From Halomonas sp. (GTDB lineage Bacteria; Pseudomonadota; Gammaproteobacteria; Pseudomonadales; Halomonadaceae), in NCBI RefSeq assembly GCF_017515565.1, contig NZ_JAFWFN010000047.1:38642-102641 (forward strand): a stretch of DNA of 64,000 nucleotides, read 5' to 3'. Positions 3,303 to 58,881 of this stretch are shown here, piece by piece. Position 1 is the stretch's first letter. Each line of letters opens with the position of its first letter. The notes below the pieces were generated by a model. It ran no database searches and was not told the DNA's origin. It saw only the letters and a list, made by a program, of their open reading frames with translations. Position numbers and translations under genes: made by a program.

Positions 3303-3854
3303 ATGATCGTTGGATTAACAGGCGGTATCGGCTCGGGTAAGTCTACCGTTGCTCGGGCGTTTGGCGCGCTGGGAATAGGTTGGGTGGATGCCGACGATGT
3401 CGCAAGAGAAGTGGTGATGCCCGGCGAACCGGCACTTGCTGCTATTGCCGAACGTTTCGGCGATAACGTGCTGCAAGCTGACGGCACTCTGAACCGGGCA
3501 GCCCTGCGCAGCATTGTGTTTGAAGCCCCAGCCGAGCGCCAGTGGCTAGAGTCGGTGACCCACCCCCGCGTGCGTGAGCGTATTCTTGTGCACCTTGAGC
3601 GCTTGCAGCGTCACTCGCCCTATGTCTTGCTTGTCTCGCCGCTACTGTTTGAGTCAGGCCAAGACAGGCTAGTAAACCGCACCATCGTGGTGGATGTACC
3701 CGTTGACGTACAGCTTTCTCGAACCCTTGAACGAGATGGCGTGAGTGAGGCTCAGGTGCATGCTATTCTCGCCGCCCAGCTACCCCGTGAAGCGCGCCTC
3801 GCTAAGGCCGATGACATTATTGATAACAGCGGGGATCATGCTTCGATGATGTAA
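3303..3854 (+). CDS. coaE: Dephospho-CoA kinase CoaE, with early stop
   Basis: Last enzyme of coenzyme A synthesis: ATP-dependent phosphorylation of the ribose 3'-OH of dephospho-CoA. The P-loop GGIGSGKST is at residues 7-15, followed by VDADDVAREV and the lid-region Arg residues; the protein reaches the conserved DDIIDNSGD near its end. It then stops at TAA 3852-3854 with 183 residues. Reading on in the same frame gives QVKQLDQHYRNEHQ and a TAG at 3897-3899, which resembles the normal CoaE C-terminal helix and would restore about 198 residues, the usual size. The stop therefore looks recent, or is a sequence error. The catalytic core is intact, so some activity is plausible. A ribosome site, AGGGAG, precedes the ATG. 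Confidence 0.9.
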   Translation: MIVGLTGGIGSGKSTVARAFGALGIGWVDADDVAREVVMPGEPALAAIAERFGDNVLQADGTLNRAALRSIVFEAPAERQWLESVTHPRVRERILVHLERLQRHSPYVLLVSPLLFESGQDRLVNRTIVVDVPVDVQLSRTLERDGVSEAQVHAILAAQLPREARLAKADDIIDNSGDHASMM

Positions 3855-8977: not shown

Positions 8978-9160
8978 GGTTTTCCTACGTGATCAACGTT
9001 GTTGAGGCATAAATGCCTTCTCCGCACCACCAGCGAGTACGGGCCTAATGTCATTCTGCTTTTGGAGGTGTTAGCGCTGGTTAGACCTGACCGGGCTCAC
9101 TGATATGTAATATCGCCCTGCCACGTCGTGACACCTTTCCAAAAACGCCGCAAGGGAGAA
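8978..9160 (-). promoter_or_regulatory. rpsA leader region
   Basis: 183 bases between the cmk stop and the rpsA start. Reading the minus strand, a small hairpin, AGGCA-ttta-TGCCT, lies at 9018-9005, about 30 bases before the start codon. In E. coli the rpsA leader folds into hairpins that replace a strong ribosome site and mediate S1 autocontrol; a similar role is inferred only from position. No clear promoter was identified. Confidence 0.35.
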
Positions 9161-9850
9161 TCAAATGCCGTTTGCCATGCCACGCTGGGCAAGCAAAACG
9201 GTCAACCGTTCAACCACTTCCGGTATGCTCAGGCGTGTGGTATCAAGCGTAATGGCATCATCTGCCGGCTTGAGAGGGGCCACACTGCGCTGCGTGTCGC
9301 GTGCATCGCGTGCCTGAATCTCCTTTAAAAGACTCGAAAGACTAGCATCCACCCCGGCTTCCTGCAACTGTTGATACCGCCGATGGGCTCGTTCTTCCGC
9401 GCTTGCCGTTAGAAAAATCTTTAGCGGCGCCTCGGGAAACACCACGGTTCCCATGTCCCGACCGTCTGCCACTAACCCTGGCGACTGACAGAAGTCGCGC
9501 TGGCGCTGGAAGAGCGCCTCACGCACAAAGGGCAACACCGCCACTTGAGAAGCCCGCTCACCCGCCTGCTCAGTGCGAATAGCACGGGTAACGTCTTCTC
9601 CTTCCAGCAGCGTGCGGGGTTGGCCCTCTTCTACAGGAAAAGCAACGTCTAACTGCACCGCAAGCTTGGCAAGCGCTGCCTCATCATCCAGGGCAACGCC
9701 GTGCTTCACTGCCGCCTGGGCAGTAAGCCGGTAGAGCGCACCGCTGTCGAGCAAGTGCCACCCCAAGCGCTCGGCCATGAGGCTACTAATAGTACCCTTG
9801 CCCGCCCCACCGGGGCCATCAATGGTCAGCACGGGCACATTAAGCGTCAT
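9161..9850 (-). CDS. cmk: Cytidylate kinase
   Basis: Transfers phosphate from ATP to CMP and dCMP in pyrimidine nucleotide recycling. The P-loop is [12 protein letters not shown] at residues 9-20. The CMP-binding segment [20 protein letters not shown] and the lid residues [11 protein letters not shown] are all present; length is about 229. I use the ATG at 9850 ([13 protein letters not shown]) and not one 18 bases upstream, because GGAGGG sits five bases before it and the protein then begins as in the family. This start lies inside the end of aroA, whose TAA is at 9842-9840, so translation is coupled. Confidence 0.95.
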
Positions 9851-17167: not shown

Positions 17168-17605
17168 TTATTGCGCTGTAAACGCTTCTTTTGTAACCAC
17201 GACACTTTCAAGCACGTCACGCACGTCGCCTTCAATGGCCGCGGCTTTATTGGCTTTCATATCAAGTAGCACAAAGGTGAGATCCGCCTGGGCGACCAGC
17301 GCGCCATCTTTACGCAGGATGCGGTGGTGGCAAAGCGCACTGCGCTCACCTACTTCGACAATACCCGTCAAAACATGAAGATCATCGTTCTGCACCGCCG
17401 CCGCGCGGTAATCAATATTCAAATTAACGACCACAAACGCATACCCTGATTGGTGAAGTTGCTTGATCAATCGGGGATGCTCATCAAAAAAGGCCCAGCG
17501 CCCCTCCTCCATGAACTCAAGGTAGCGCGCGTTATTTACGTGGCCATAGCCATCCAAGTGATAGCCGCGGACCCGCATACCTACCTGTGTAATTGACCCT
17601 GACAT
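17168..17605 (-). CDS. fadM: FadM-like acyl-CoA thioesterase (hotdog fold)
   Basis: A 145-residue single-domain hotdog thioesterase. The segment VRGYHLDGYGHVNNARYLEF holds the catalytic Asp-rich start and the HVNNARY helix; it is closer to E. coli FadM (long-chain acyl-CoA thioesterase) than to YbgC, and AFVVVNLNIDYRAAA and TFVLLDMK also follow FadM. It would hydrolyse acyl-CoA in the cytoplasm, for example products that stall beta-oxidation. The start follows AAAGGAGAC. Its leader carries three tandem 13-bp repeats. It is divergent from rdgC. Confidence 0.8.
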   Translation of the reverse strand: MSGSITQVGMRVRGYHLDGYGHVNNARYLEFMEEGRWAFFDEHPRLIKQLHQSGYAFVVVNLNIDYRAAAVQNDDLHVLTGIVEVGERSALCHHRILRKDGALVAQADLTFVLLDMKANKAAAIEGDVRDVLESVVVTKEAFTAQ

Positions 17606-17623
17606 AGTGTCTCCTTTTCGATG

Positions 17624-17663
17624 ACTGTTTTTAATAACTGCTTTTAATAACCGTTTTTCAATA
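17624..17663. repeat. Three tandem 13-bp repeats upstream of the fadM-like gene
   Basis: Copies: ACTGTTTTTAATA (17624-17636), ACTGCTTTTAATA (17637-17649) and the degenerate ACCGTTTTTCAATA (17650-17663). They start 19 bases upstream of the thioesterase ATG, within its leader or promoter. A similar CAGCTTTTAATAACC occurs before nth near 29488. They could be a repeated operator or a slippage product. Confidence 0.75.
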
Positions 17664-17808
17664 TCTGTGTGTGGTTGAGCGAGTTGGCAAAACAGCCCTA
17701 ATCAAACACAAGTTTAAAACGTACGCAACAACACGACATTCCCCGAGGTGCTAGCAGGAAAGGTCTGCTTTCGACATAATGTGCCACCTTTTAAATAGGA
17801 TTGGTGAC

Positions 17809-18747
17809 ATGTGGTTTAAGCACCTGCATTTATATCGCCTTCACGGCGCCCCTGAGCTAGACAGTTCAGCATTAGCAAGCGCACTCGATATCCATGCAGC
17901 CAAGCCTCTTGGAAATGCCGATGCACGGCGCCTTGGTTGGACAGCGCCCGCAGGCCGCTTAAGCGGCGGACAATTGCTGCATGAAATCCAGGGGCACCGG
18001 CTAATTTCAGCGCTGCGCCAGGAGCGATTACTGCCTGCTTCAGTGGTTAAAGAAGAAGTTGACGAAAAAGTCGCGGATATTGAGGCCAGCGAAGGCCGTA
18101 AAGTTACGCGCAAAGAAAAAACCGCATTAAAAGAGCAAGTTACGGAAGCGCTGCTGCCGCGTGCCTTTGTACGCAGCCAGAAAGTCGACGTGTGGTGGGA
18201 TACCCGCCGCCACCTGATCGGCATTAATGCCAGCTCACGTACCCGCGCAGAAGATATCCTAGACTTACTCCGAGAAACCCTTGGCAGTTTAAAAGCTACG
18301 CCGATCTCATCGCAAACGCTGCCCATTCGTGCCATGACCACATGGCTTGGCGATCCTGCCAGCCGCCCATCGGATCTTCAACTGGGCGATCAGGTGGAGC
18401 TTAAAGCCAAAGGCGACGACGGCGTTTTACGGGCGCGCCAGGTAGACTTAGACAGCGACGAGATTCAACAGCTACTCGAAAGTGGCCGCCAAGCAAGTAA
18501 ACTCGCTATTAGCCTAGAGGGTCGCTTAAGCTTTGTACTCCACGACGATTTAGCACTTAAATCGCTGCGTTTTGGCGACACGCTAATCGAAGAGGCTGAC
18601 CACGCCGATGATGGCGACGACGCCCTGGCACGCCTGGAAACCGACTTTATTTTAATGGCACAGGCGCTATCCGACGACGTCACCCGCTTATTGGAGTGGC
18701 TCGGAGGTGAAACACAGCGGGAACCTGCCGCGCAGCAAGAAGCCTAA
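17809..18747 (+). CDS. rdgC: Recombination-associated protein RdgC
   Basis: A ring-shaped DNA-binding protein that limits RecA function and is needed in recombination-deficient E. coli. The 312-residue product starts MWFKHLHLYRL, has LPRAFVRSQ near 120, a long basic helix EASEGRKVTRKEKTALKEQV, and ends with FILMAQALSDDV followed by LLEWLGGE, all matching RdgC. I use ATG 17809 with AGGATTGGTGAC ahead of it, rather than an in-frame ATG ten codons upstream that gives a non-family extension. The upstream gap from 17606 is shared with the divergent fadM-like gene. Confidence 0.95.
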   Translation: MWFKHLHLYRLHGAPELDSSALASALDIHAAKPLGNADARRLGWTAPAGRLSGGQLLHEIQGHRLISALRQERLLPASVVKEEVDEKVADIEASEGRKVTRKEKTALKEQVTEALLPRAFVRSQKVDVWWDTRRHLIGINASSRTRAEDILDLLRETLGSLKATPISSQTLPIRAMTTWLGDPASRPSDLQLGDQVELKAKGDDGVLRARQVDLDSDEIQQLLESGRQASKLAISLEGRLSFVLHDDLALKSLRFGDTLIEEADHADDGDDALARLETDFILMAQALSDDVTRLLEWLGGETQREPAAQQEA

Positions 18748-20536: not shown

Positions 20537-22573
20537 ATGTCCAACACTGCCCCGCGCAACATTTTGGTGACCAGCGCGCTCCCCTATGCGAATGGAGCGA
20601 TTCACCTCGGTCACCTGCTTGAGTACATCCAAACGGATATCTGGGTGCGTTTTCAAAAAAGTCGTGGCCAGCAGTGCTACTACGTTTGCGCCGATGATGC
20701 CCATGGCACCGCCATTATGCTGCGCGCTGAGCAGGAAGGCATCACCCCAGAGGCATTGATCGCCCGCGTCTCCCAAGACCACCAAGAAGACTTTGCCCGC
20801 TTTGGCGTTGGGTTTGATAACTACCACTCCACCCATTCCGACGAAAACCGTTATTTTAGTGAACTGATCTACACAAGCCTGCGCGATAAAGGCCATATTG
20901 CCACTCGCGATATTGAGCAGATGTTTGACCCTCAAAAAGGCCTGTTCCTGGCGGATCGCTTTATTAAAGGCACCTGCCCCAAGTGCGGTGCAGATGATCA
21001 GTACGGCGATAACTGTGAAAAGTGTGGTGCGACCTACACCCCTGCAGATTTGATTAACCCAGTTTCAGCTATCTCAGGCGCAACCCCCGAGGTACGCAGC
21101 TCTACCCACTACTTCTTCAAGTTGCCTGATTTCGCCGAATTTCTTCAGCAGTGGATTAACGACGGTCACGTTCAGCCACAAATTCGCAATAAGCTTATGG
21201 AGTGGTTCGAATCCGGGTTTAACGAGTGGGACATCTCCCGAGACGCGCCTTACTTTGGCTTTGAAATCCCCGACGCTCCAGGCAAATACTTCTATGTGTG
21301 GCTTGATGCCCCCATTGGTTACTTGGCTAGCTTTAAAAACCTTTGCGACCGCGAAGGAATTGATTTCGATAGTTTCTGGCACAAAGACTCAAGCGCCGAG
21401 GTTTACCACTTCATTGGTAAAGACATTGTCTACTTCCACGCGCTGTTTTGGCCCGCCATGCTCCATGGCGCCGACCTACGCACCCCTACGGCGGTTAATT
21501 GCCACGGCTTTTTAACCGTCGATGGTGCCAAGATGTCCAAGTCACGCGGCACTTTTATTAAAGCCGCTACTTATGCCGAGCACCTCAACCCAGAATACTT
21601 GCGCTACTACTTTGCAGCGAAGCTAACCTCGAAGGTCGACGATTTAGACCTCAATTTGGAAGATTTCGCCGCACGGGTTAACTCTGATCTGGTCGGCAAA
21701 GTGGTTAACATCGCCAGCCGCTGCGCAGGCTTTGTGAAAAAAATCGGTAACGGCACCTTGGCAGAACACTGTGCCGAGCCCCAGATGGTGGCGCGCTTTA
21801 TTGCTGCCGGCGAAGATATTGCGGGCGATTTCGAAGCGCGGGAGTTTAGCCGAGCCATGCGCAAAATCATGGAATTGGCAGATGAGGCCAATACCTATAT
21901 TGCTGAAAAAGAACCCTGGGCACTGGCAAAACAGGATGGCCGCGATAGCGAGGTGCTAGAGATCTGCTCCGTAGGCATCAACCTGTTCCGTCAGTTAATG
22001 GTCTACCTCGCTCCGGTAGTGCCTGTAATGGCTGAACAAGCCCGAGAGTTCCTCAAGCTTGACTCCCTGGACTGGGAAAGCCGTGGTGATGTGTTGATCA
22101 ATCATCCGATCAATAAGTTTAAACCCCTAATGACGCGGGTTGAGCGTGACAAAATCGACGCCATGATTGAGGGCTCCAAGGAGGATTTAGTGGAAGAACA
22201 GAAGCTGAAGAACACCCCCAAAGGCCCCTTGGCAGACGACCCTATTGCTGCAGAAATCAGCTTTGACGACTTTGCTAAAGTAGACCTGCGCATTGCTCGC
22301 ATCGCGAAAGCGCAATACGTTGAAGGTGCGGATAAACTCCTGCAGCTAACCCTGGATTTGGGCGGCGAAACCCGCAATGTCTTTTCAGGCATTCGGTCAG
22401 CCTACTCGCCAGAAGCGCTTGAAGGCCGCTTAACCGTCATGGTCGCTAACTTAGCGCCACGCAAGATGCGCTTTGGTGTGTCGGAAGGCATGGTACTGGC
22501 TTCTGCTAACAACGAGGGTATTTACCTGCTCTCCCCCGACTCTGGCGCAGAGCCAGGTCAGCGTGTAACGTAA
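20537..22573 (+). CDS. metG: Methionyl-tRNA synthetase
   Basis: Charges tRNA-Met. A class I synthetase of 678 residues with the HIGH-type motif HLGH near residue 25, a zinc knuckle with [17 protein letters not shown] near residues 145-162, and KMSKS near 332-336. A C-terminal EMAP-type tRNA-binding domain (about residues 575-678: [30 protein letters not shown]) dimerises the enzyme. The 138-base gap upstream contains no clear promoter. It ends at a strong terminator. Confidence 0.98.
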
Positions 22574-49958: not shown

Positions 49959-50489
49959 ATGAACTTCGATAATATCCCCGCCGGAAAAGATCTGCCCAAC
50001 GACATTTACGTGGCAATTGAAATTCCTGCCAACCATGCGCCGATTAAATATGAAATTGATAAAGACATGGGCGCCCTCCTCGTTGACCGTTTCATGGCCA
50101 CCCCCATGTTCTACCCGGCCAACTACGGCTTTATCCCTCATACATTAGCTGACGATGGCGACGCCCTGGATGCACTGGTCGTCACTCCTCACCCAGTTGC
50201 GCCTGGCAGCATTATTCGTGCGCGCCCCATCGGCATCTTGAACATGACCGATGAAGCGGGTGAAGACGCAAAGCTCGTCTGTGTACCGCACCCGAAACTC
50301 AGCACGCTGTACGATGACGTTCAAGAAGTCACAGACCTTCCTGAGCTGCTGCGCCAGCAGATCGCACACTTCTTCGAGAACTACAAAGACCTCGAAAAAG
50401 GCAAATGGGTCAAAGTTGAGTCTTGGGAAGGCGTTGAAGCTGCTCGTAAAGCGATTGAAAAATCCGCAGCGGCCTACCATAAAGCCTAA
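49959..50489 (+). CDS. ppa: Inorganic pyrophosphatase (family I)
   Basis: Hydrolyses PPi and so pulls biosynthetic reactions forward. A 176-residue soluble enzyme with [18 protein letters not shown], the metal-binding [11 protein letters not shown] (Asp cluster near residues 66-71) and KWVKVESW near the end. The start is set by AAGGAACC. It ends at a hairpin terminator. With pfp upstream it competes for the same PPi pool. Confidence 0.98.
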
Positions 50490-50510
50490 AGGCTAGGTAA
50501 GTTATTCAAA

Positions 50511-50535
50511 AAGGCTGCCCCCGGGGCAGCCTTTT
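50511..50535 (+). terminator. Rho-independent terminator of ppa
   Basis: AAGGCTGCCCC pairs with GGGGCAGCCTT around a two-base turn, then TTTGCG; it lies 22 bases after the stop. Confidence 0.92.
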
Positions 50536-50645
50536 TGCGTCTAGGTCCTTTTTATATTGAAAAAACAATGCATTTGCTGATTAACTCAGTGTGAAGTACC
50601 GCGTCACGACACCGCAGCCGCTACGCTGGCGTTGAGAGGTGCGAT

Positions 50646-52544
50646 ATGCTGCTTCTCAGACACCCCGTTAAGACTGCGCAAGGATACCTCGTGTTACTCA
50701 TTAAACGTTTTAGCCTGTTTTTTTTACTCTGCTGGCTCCCTGTGCTGGCTCAGGCTCAGTGGTTTTCCTCTTCGAACAATCAGAGCGACTTTTTACCTGT
50801 CTTAGAGGCATTTCAACCCACTGCCTGGCATGACGGTGAGTCGCTTTTCATTGGCGTGGACATTGCTGATGAGTATTACCTCTATCGACACCAATTGGCA
50901 GTTACCAGCCTAAATAGTAGCGTTACCCTAGAGGAGCCCCTGATACCCGACGGCACCTTTACCAATGATGAGTTTATGGGTGATGTTTACATTTTTCGCG
51001 ACAACTTGGTATTTGAGACACCTTTTTCAGCACCCTATAGCGGCCCCATCGATATTGAGCTTACCTTTCAAGGCTGTGCAGACGCAGGCCTGTGCTACCC
51101 GCCTGAACGCATAACCCTTGAAGCAAATGAAACGTCGCCACCTGCTGGGTTTGCTGACTGGGAGGCGGAGCCCACGTCCCAGGCGAGCCCCTCCGGGGAG
51201 CAACGCACTGCTAACGACAACACCAGCTTTAGCGCTCCACAGAGCCAGGACAGCCGTTTTAGCGCCCTGATTAGCGAGGCTAGCCTACCACTTGCGCTTG
51301 GCCTCTTTTTCCTCGCCGGCATTGGGCTTACCTTTACTCCCTGCGTCCTGCCAATGATCCCTATCTTGTCATCCATTGTGGTGGGCCAAAACCCCACTAA
51401 ACCCCGTGCCTTCGCTCTATCTGCCAGCTATGTGTTGGGCATGGCGTCTACCTATGCCGTGGTAGGCATCTTAATGGGGTTATTTGGCGCGGGGCTTAAT
51501 CTTCAAGCCCATTTGCAGTCCGCGCCGGTACTGGTCACGTTCGCACTGCTGTTTACGCTATTTGCACTCGCTATGTTTGGTGCCTTTAATTTGCGCGTCT
51601 CCCCCCGTTTAGCCAGCCGGGTAGACGCTTGGCAAGCCCGCGCACAACAGAGTGGGCCGGCGGGATTAGCGCTGGCAGGCGCGCTATCGGTGTTGGTGGT
51701 TTCTCCCTGTGTGACTGCACCTTTAGCGGGCGCGCTGGTGTTTATTTCAACCACCGGCGATGCGCTGATGGGGGGCGCCGTTTTGTTCGCGCTTGGTATG
51801 GGCATGGGGGTTCCGCTCCTGCTGGTAGGCACCTTTGGCACTACCTTACTGCCCCGCACCGGCGCCTGGATGAACGGCGTAAAAGTCGCCTTTGGGTTGT
51901 TGATGCTGGGTGTCGCCATCTGGATGATTGAGCGGTTAGTGGCGCCGTCTGTCGCACTACTACTCTGGGCAGCGCTGGCCATTGGCAGCGCACTAGCGCT
52001 GGGCGCACTAAACATTAACCAACCTCTTGGCTGGTCTCGGGCGCGTCAAACATTAGGCCTTATGCTGCTTGCCTGGGGCGTTGCGCTGGTGTTTGGCGCG
52101 GCCCAAGGTGGCAGCAACCCGCTTCGCCCACTGACGGTTTCAGGCGGACAATCCGAGGCCATATCTCAGGCACTCTCATTTCAAACAGTCGACTCCCTTA
52201 GCGACCTGGAGATGGCCGTTGCCCAAGCAGAGCGTAACCAGCGCCCTGCCTTTGTCCACTTCACTGCAGACTGGTGTATATCCTGCAAACTGATGGAGCG
52301 AGAGGTTTACCCCCACCCAGACGTAAGCGCTGCATTGAACGATTTTCAGCTTGTAGCGGTCGATGTGACCAACACGGATGCTCAAAGCCGAGAGTTGCTT
52401 AACAGCTTCAATCTTTTTGGCCCTCCTAGCCTGCTGTTTTTTGCTGAGGGAGAGGAAATTCGCGATGCGCGAATTCAAGGTGAGGTCAATGCTGAACAAC
52501 TTGCACAACACTTAGAGTCGTTTAGGCGTTGGCAGCAAGGCTGA
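50646..52544 (+). CDS. dsbD: Thiol:disulfide interchange protein DsbD
   Basis: Transfers electrons from cytoplasmic thioredoxin across the inner membrane to periplasmic DsbC and CcmG. 632 residues: a signal helix near 18-38, an N-terminal immunoglobulin-like domain with the Cys pair CADAGLC (near 145-152), an eight-helix core with TFTPCVLP and VSPCVTAPL, and a C-terminal thioredoxin domain with WCISC near residue 544. The N-terminus is about 20 residues longer than usual; a GTG in the same frame near 50691 is an alternative start. GAGGTG precedes the ATG. Confidence 0.95.
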   Translation: MLLLRHPVKTAQGYLVLLIKRFSLFFLLCWLPVLAQAQWFSSSNNQSDFLPVLEAFQPTAWHDGESLFIGVDIADEYYLYRHQLAVTSLNSSVTLEEPLIPDGTFTNDEFMGDVYIFRDNLVFETPFSAPYSGPIDIELTFQGCADAGLCYPPERITLEANETSPPAGFADWEAEPTSQASPSGEQRTANDNTSFSAPQSQDSRFSALISEASLPLALGLFFLAGIGLTFTPCVLPMIPILSSIVVGQNPTKPRAFALSASYVLGMASTYAVVGILMGLFGAGLNLQAHLQSAPVLVTFALLFTLFALAMFGAFNLRVSPRLASRVDAWQARAQQSGPAGLALAGALSVLVVSPCVTAPLAGALVFISTTGDALMGGAVLFALGMGMGVPLLLVGTFGTTLLPRTGAWMNGVKVAFGLLMLGVAIWMIERLVAPSVALLLWAALAIGSALALGALNINQPLGWSRARQTLGLMLLAWGVALVFGAAQGGSNPLRPLTVSGGQSEAISQALSFQTVDSLSDLEMAVAQAERNQRPAFVHFTADWCISCKLMEREVYPHPDVSAALNDFQLVAVDVTNTDAQSRELLNSFNLFGPPSLLFFAEGEEIRDARIQGEVNAEQLAQHLESFRRWQQG

Positions 52545-57254: not shown

Positions 57255-58757
57255 ATGGCTGATAGCACTCTTAAAGCTGGTAACAACGTAACTCCCGTTC
57301 GCCGCGCACTCCTGAGCGTATCTGACAAAACCGGCATTGTTGAATTTGCCCGTGGCTTGAGCCAAAACGGCGTGGAGCTGCTTTCTACGGGGGGCACGTT
57401 TCGCCTACTGCAAGAAAACAGCATCCCGGTAAAAGAAGTTTCTGAGCACACCGGCTTTCCCGAAATTATGGATGGCCGGGTTAAGACGCTACACCCGAAG
57501 ATTCACGGCGGCATTCTTGCCCGCCGGGGCCAAGACGACGCGGTGATGGCAGAGAACGATATTACGCCAATCGATATGGTCGTGGTTAACCTATACCCTT
57601 TTGCCGCCACCGTCGCCAAGCCTGACTGCACCTTAGAAGACGCTATCGAAAACATCGATATTGGCGGACCCACAATGGTGCGCGCCTGCGCAAAGAACCA
57701 TGCCTTCACAACGATTGTGGTGAACGCAGATGACTATGTACGCGTTCTAGGTGAACTCTCGCACCACAATGGCCAGGTAAGCGCTGAAACCCGCTTTGAT
57801 CTCGCCGTTAAGGCGTTTGAACATACGGCAGGTTATGACGGTGCCATCGCCGACTATCTAGGCCGCAAAGTACACAGCGAAGACGCTTCCTTCGCTCGCA
57901 CTTTCAACCTGCAATTACATAAAAAGCAGGATATGCGCTACGGGGAAAACCCCCACCAGCAAGCGGCATTTTACGTTGACCCTACCGCAAGCGAACCTAG
58001 CGTTGCCACTGCAAAAACACTGCAAGGCAAGCCGCTCTCTTTTAATAATGTGGCCGATACCGATGCCGCCTTTGAGTGCGTAAAAGCCTTTGATGACACG
58101 GCCTGCGTTATCGTCAAGCATGCCAACCCCTGTGGCGTAGCCATTGGTGCAAGCGCCTTGGAAGCCTACGACAAGGCGTTTGCTACCGACCCCACCAGCG
58201 CGTTTGGTGGCATTATCGCCTTCAATGTGGCGCTGGACGCCGAGACCGCACGCGCTATTATCGACCGTCAGTTTGTAGAAGTAATTATTGCACCCGGCGT
58301 TAGCGATGAAGCAGCTGCGATTGTGGCGGAAAAACAGAACGTGCGTCTTTTGGATGTCAGCGCTCACTGGCCCGGTGAACAGCAGCCAGCATTTGATTTC
58401 AAACGTGTTAATGGCGGCCTACTGGTGCAGGAACGCGATCAGGGCATGGTGACCCGTGAAGAGTTAACCGTCGTCAGCGAGCGTGCGCCCTCAGAACAGG
58501 AGCTACGTGATCTCGCGTTTGCTTGGCGAGTGGCTAAATTCGTTAAATCCAACGCCATTGTGTACGCTAAAGCAGGGCAAACTGTTGGCGTTGGCGCTGG
58601 CCAAATGAGCCGAGTTTACTCAGCTAAAATTGCCGGTATTAAAGCAGCCGATGAAGGGCTTTCGGTTCCTGGCTCGGTCATGGCGTCAGACGCATTCTTT
58701 CCCTTCCGCGACGGTATCGACGCCGCCGCTAACGCAGGCATTACCGCCGTTATTTAG
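57255..58757 (+). CDS. purH: AICAR formyltransferase/IMP cyclohydrolase PurH, interrupted by amber stop
   Basis: The last two steps of IMP synthesis. The N-terminal cyclohydrolase domain ([25 protein letters not shown]) and the formyltransferase domain ([46 protein letters not shown]) are intact for 500 residues. TAG at 58755-58757 then follows TAVI. The frame continues after it as [20 protein letters not shown] and ends MRHFRH with TAA at 58851-58853, exactly the normal C-terminus; the family has Gln at the stop (VIQPGGS). A full gene would be 57255-58853, 532 residues. CAG to TAG is a one-base change. As read, the product lacks 31 residues including the conserved PGGS loop. Confidence 0.93.
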
Positions 58758-58881
58758 CCCGGTGGCTCAATGCGTGACCAGGAAGTGATCGATGCCGCCA
58801 ATGAGGCGGGTATTGCGATGGTATTCACCGGCATGCGCCACTTCCGCCACTAAGTAAGCACTTATCGTTTTTTAAACGACT

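Follow-up and report, generated by a model that had tools for sequence, protein, structure and literature searches.

A TAG codon near the end of purH in a Halomonas draft genome, a candidate recent nonsense allele

The purH locus and its in-frame stop

The window, a stretch of 64,000 nucleotides, lies within one contig (C59) of a Halomonas draft genome of 86 contigs and 3.76 Mb that is 97.6% complete. A purH frame (57255 to 58853) runs on the plus strand from an ATG at 57255 to a TAA at 58851 to 58853, and the open reading frame list and translation place a TAG at codon 501 of its 533 codons. No stop interrupts the 500 codons 5' of the TAG or the 31 sense codons 3' of it. The first-pass annotation had described a TAG at 58755 to 58757 that splits purH and leaves the downstream part intact, and the frame and its translation bore this out. 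The features are as follows:

57255..58757, plus strand: purH, standard-code product of 500 amino acids (open reading frame list, translation, Pfam, TIGR00355)
58755..58757, plus strand: in-frame amber codon at position 501 (sequence and codon comparison with 109 other loci)
58758..58853, plus strand: rest of the purH frame, uninterrupted, with 31 sense codons before the TAA (translation, homologue alignment)

The 500-amino-acid product contains the IMP cyclohydrolase (MGS-like) domain and most of the AICAR formyltransferase domain, with Pfam matches to MGS at residues 27 to 140 and to AICARFT_IMPCHas at residues 146 to 462. It matched the NCBIfam purH profile TIGR00355 with 747.6 bits, above the curated cutoff of 528, over profile positions 1 to 479 of 511, which leaves the C terminus incomplete. 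A Fis regulator gene lies upstream, and a gene for an aldehyde dehydrogenase of the succinate-semialdehyde dehydrogenase type lies downstream on the opposite strand. This local gene order is common to the two nearest relatives by purH, G050 (98% amino acid identity) and G062 (96%).

The assembly contains a single PurH-type gene. Searches of the assembly for another PurH-type gene and for a PurP-type formyltransferase found neither. Three further purine genes were examined, purL, purD, and purF, and all were uninterrupted, which fits a recent loss rather than an old decay of the pathway. A literature search found no report of purine auxotrophy in Halomonas and, as judged by titles and the beginnings of abstracts, nothing relevant on Halomonas purH.

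Conservation of the tail and age of the stop

Codon 501 was compared across 110 best-matching loci, namely, the best 30 of 80 genus genomes (the genome under study included) and the best 80 of 576 relatives. The second set came from a named genome collection; the collections searched hold one genome per species, and some species are present in both sets. A strand-aware count found CAG in 82 of these loci, CAA in 26, GAA in 1, and TAG in 1, the sole bearer of TAG among the 110 being the genome under study. The first-pass annotation had taken Gln to be the residue of the family at this position. This was true of 108 of the 109 other best-matching loci (the exception has Glu) but not of distant solved homologues, as the five for which alignments were listed have Glu, His, Ser, Ala, and Ala. 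By these alignments Gln501 is not a family-wide residue, although the tail that follows is a family-wide feature. Both G050 and G062 have CAG at codon 501, and thus a single C-to-T transition suffices to produce the TAG, in support of the single-step CAG-to-TAG change proposed initially.

The genus search covered 82 genomes, including the one under study, and yielded a purH match in 80; the two that yielded none have a completeness of 66% and 71%. An uninterrupted purH frame of at least 531 codons was present in 75 of the 80. The remaining five are the genome under study, with 509 codons from stop to stop, and four genomes in which purH is fragmented or interrupted (G008, G021, G031, and G074; completeness of 74 to 89%, contamination of 2 to 6%). 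In a separate observation, the match of the purH tail to the published genome of Halomonas sulfidaeris ATCC BAA-803 (AP019514.1) was broken near residue 484 into two pieces that lie in different frames, which suggests a frameshift in that genome.

If read through, the tail can be aligned with the nine solved PurH/ATIC sequences matched, in every case as far as their last residue. Seventeen sequences from the compared purH loci were aligned, and 20 of the 32 tail positions (501 to 532) were invariant among them. The tail also holds the conserved R-x-F-x-H end, the Arg of which presumably binds the phosphate group of AICAR in the human enzyme, ATIC. The read-through protein was modeled with AlphaFold from 17 sequences; the model was of modest confidence (mean pLDDT, 73.4; pTM, 0.54) and gave a weak hint that the stop falls in a strand at residues 498 to 501, before a helix at 509 to 518 and a strand at 521 to 524.

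Compared with G050, the tail has 7 synonymous differences and, over 72.3 sites, 0 nonsynonymous ones, and on this evidence it is genuine coding sequence rather than a chance open frame. At five of the seven differences the genome under study agrees with G062, and those five changes probably arose on the G050 side. Had the tail been free of selection since the split from G050, approximately 6.7 nonsynonymous changes would be expected (half of 0.186 × 72.3 sites), and none was observed. The stop, if real, therefore probably dates from roughly the second half of the branch that began with that split; the suggestion that it is very recent is supported by a tail unchanged at the protein level. The body of the gene has 59 synonymous and 9 nonsynonymous differences from G050, with a dS of 0.186 and a dN/dS of 0.043, close to the value of 0.036 between G050 and G062. 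There is no sign of relaxed selection in purH, and its dN/dS indicates strong purifying selection.

Real base, consensus error, or read-through

We slightly favor, at a probability of about 0.52, the explanation that a recent C-to-T change replaced Gln501 of purH by an amber codon, and we place it ahead of a consensus error. The strong purifying selection on purH counts against it, as it makes a fixed nonsense allele uncommon, and so does the fact that a single-base consensus error predicts an identical sequence.

The main alternative, to which we give less than even odds, takes the T at 58755 for a mistake in the consensus, or for a minority allele that the assembler fixed, in an organism whose usual purH is intact; sequencing error was among the options offered by the first-pass annotation. 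Several characteristics of the assembly are consistent with this possibility. Among 40 contig termini examined (from 20 of the 86 contigs), an overlap of exactly 141 bases was found in two pairs, and overlaps of 104, 63, and 32 bases were found in three others. One of the 141-base pairs consists of the end of C59 (63860 to 64000 in the window), which carries tRNA-Leu(TAG), and the identical start of contig C32; the ends of C17 and C63 form the other. These 141-base overlaps resemble the k-mer overlaps in the graph of a short-read assembler, and 141 is the largest default k of the assembler MEGAHIT. Because the bases shared by C59 and C32 hold nearly all of the tRNA-Leu(TAG) gene, it was probably counted twice among the 54 tRNA matches (RF00005) in the assembly, compared with 68 in G050 and 60 in G062, each a single contig. 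A tRNA-Phe anticodon pattern present in G050 was absent. A 16S rRNA gene was not found in the assembly with a search that also failed in 5 of 14 control genomes. The 141-base overlaps, the missing tRNAs, and the failure to find 16S suggest that the assembly is a short-read metagenome bin, and therefore the single base at 58755 would be the consensus of a population. The fragmentation of the draft into 86 contigs and the lack of relaxed selection on purH also favor a consensus error, and the broken purH genes of G008, G021, G031, and G074 suggest that assembly faults do create such genes.

The remainder of the contig argues in the other direction. C59 was compared with the two relatives on the basis of nonoverlapping frames, of which 62 could be matched in G050 and 61 in G062, and neither comparison revealed a convincing frameshift in an established gene. 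A lone substitution error would be unusual in such a contig. The only plausible C59 genes found interrupted relative to these genomes were purH and coaE (dephospho-CoA kinase; window positions 3303 to 3854), in which a TAA at 3852 to 3854 falls 15 codons short of the end of the G050 and G062 frames. The coaE stop is probably harmless, as judged from a Pfam domain match that is nearly complete (1 to 177 of 180) without the last 15 residues. In another contig (C25), a GGDEF/EAL gene (L186:9567-10385) contains an in-frame TAA with pieces on both sides that match the EAL domain. With coaE and the GGDEF/EAL gene interrupted as well, real nonsense changes may occur in this genome, even though these interruptions could themselves be errors. 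The frameshift result makes the consensus look good, and nonsense changes seem to occur.

Other candidate interruptions were set aside. The G050 frame at g50 17576-18139 is also broken in G062 and is antisense to a predicted gene of the genome under study, and the gene status of g50 73392-73676 (94 amino acids, split in the genome under study) is uncertain. Frames at 9007-9282, 66364-67428, and 84305-85090 of the genome under study and at g50 50363-50872 were regarded as shadow frames or start site differences, and g50 21296-21658 and g62 50419-51102, both split in the genome under study, dropped out when nonoverlapping frames were taken. Outside the window, approximately 26 kb of the same contig (C59:9253-35066; L167 and L168) had no listed match in the corresponding G050 region. 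This stretch ends beside a tRNA-Pro gene and looks like a genomic island.

We consider it unlikely that the TAG is real and is read through, by a suppressor tRNA or by near-cognate decoding, often enough to yield useful full-length PurH. A tail unchanged at the protein level would be consistent with read-through, but a young mutation would be expected to leave the tail just as intact. Position 501 might accept many different residues, because Glu, His, Ser, Ala, and Ala are found there in the five distant solved homologues listed. The base after the purH TAG is C, and TAG followed by C is a leaky stop context. The first-pass annotation had also raised amber read-through and a search for an amber-suppressing tRNA. 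No CUA anticodon was found among the 54 tRNA matches, all of which were run through ARAGORN, in a tRNA set that is incomplete, such that a suppressor tRNA could sit in an unassembled repeat. Release factor 1 is present, with a prfA match of 556.2 bits that is above the cutoff and has no internal stop.

Coding continuation beyond stop codons was surveyed in 502,641 bases (13% of the genome) with 438 predicted genes, which end in TAA (226), TGA (110), or TAG (102). The survey was loose, judging only the 157 of 438 genes that could be extended in frame by 20 codons or more. Such extensions follow 31 of the 102 TAG-ended genes, and 15 of the 31 are mostly outside another gene. Fourteen rows passed the loose filters (4 TAG, 9 TAA, and 1 TGA); purH and the TAA-interrupted GGDEF/EAL gene of L186 are among them, and in another row (L178) the extension resembles the start of a separate gene. 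The coding score per codon past the TAG was by far the highest for purH (0.31), with scores of 0.07, 0.09, and 0.17 for the other three TAG rows, and purH was the sole strongly coding frame beyond a TAG in the bases surveyed. Neither the tRNA search, the release factor 1 search, nor the survey supported genome-wide amber decoding, and read-through at purH itself drew no support from them.

A variant in which the TAG is a real, tolerated codon, with partial read-through that lowers PurH output and acts as a brake on purine synthesis without loss of function, appears improbable. Least credible is the idea that PurH of this lineage naturally ends at codon 501 and still works: the truncated protein does score above the TIGR00355 cutoff, but no homologue ending naturally at this codon was found elsewhere in the genus, where the matched genomes other than the one under study have either the full frame (75 of 80) or one of the four fragmented genes, and the invariant tail positions and the reach of all nine solved sequences to the last tail residue also argue against it.

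Predicted consequences and comparison with known systems

If the favored explanation, a recent nonsense allele, is correct, a very recent single C-to-T transition in the sequenced lineage would have converted Gln501 of purH to an amber codon, and translation would end after 500 residues. The truncated protein would keep the N-terminal IMP cyclohydrolase domain and lose 32 residues from the end of the formyltransferase domain. Because the tail aligns to the end of every solved PurH/ATIC sequence matched, the formyltransferase activity of the 500-residue protein should be lost. Reinitiation could not restore the formyltransferase domain. In-frame ATG or GTG codons follow the TAG at 58770, 58785, 58818, and 58833, and even the first of these yields just 28 residues. 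The cyclohydrolase activity may remain, by analogy with PurH domains that were functional when made separately, according to the retrieved portion of one study (PMC6797443). The conversion of AICAR to FAICAR would fail, leaving the cell dependent on purines from outside. We infer that, with a real base at 58755, the truncated PurH has no formyltransferase activity and the strain is auxotrophic for purines, the latter being one of the options raised in the first-pass annotation.

A real base would make this genome a clean, single-step candidate for purine auxotrophy within the Halomonas/Vreelandella group, of relevance to the exchange of nutrients, and views of the genetic code would stay as they are. 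An erroneous base would instead show how a single position in a draft genome can make a core metabolic gene look like a pseudogene.

In domain order, gene order, and sequence (98% amino acid identity to G050), the gene is an ordinary member of the PurH/ATIC family (TIGR00355), from which it differs in that its standard-code product lacks the final 32 residues. The stop is one instance of an already described class. In-frame stops in conserved bacterial genes are widespread and mostly short-lived, in genes under purifying selection, according to the retrieved part of Belinky et al. (2021, PMC7918605), in which the example in Figure 1 is a TAG/CAG site. Like the cases described there, purH has a single-step CAG/TAG change, is otherwise intact, and has a low dN/dS. 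The same part of that paper expects a substantial share of raw cases to be artifacts and focuses on stops common to at least two species; unlike that filtered set, the purH stop is found in one genome, with no shared orthologous stop.

The predicted phenotype can be compared with that of a purH deletion in Salmonella enterica, which, in the retrieved portion of the report (PMC5798407), removed both activities and resulted in a requirement for purine and thiamine and the accumulation of AICAR. The two cases are alike in the loss of AICAR transformylase and in the purine requirement, both predicted here. They differ in that the IMP cyclohydrolase may remain in the Halomonas strain.
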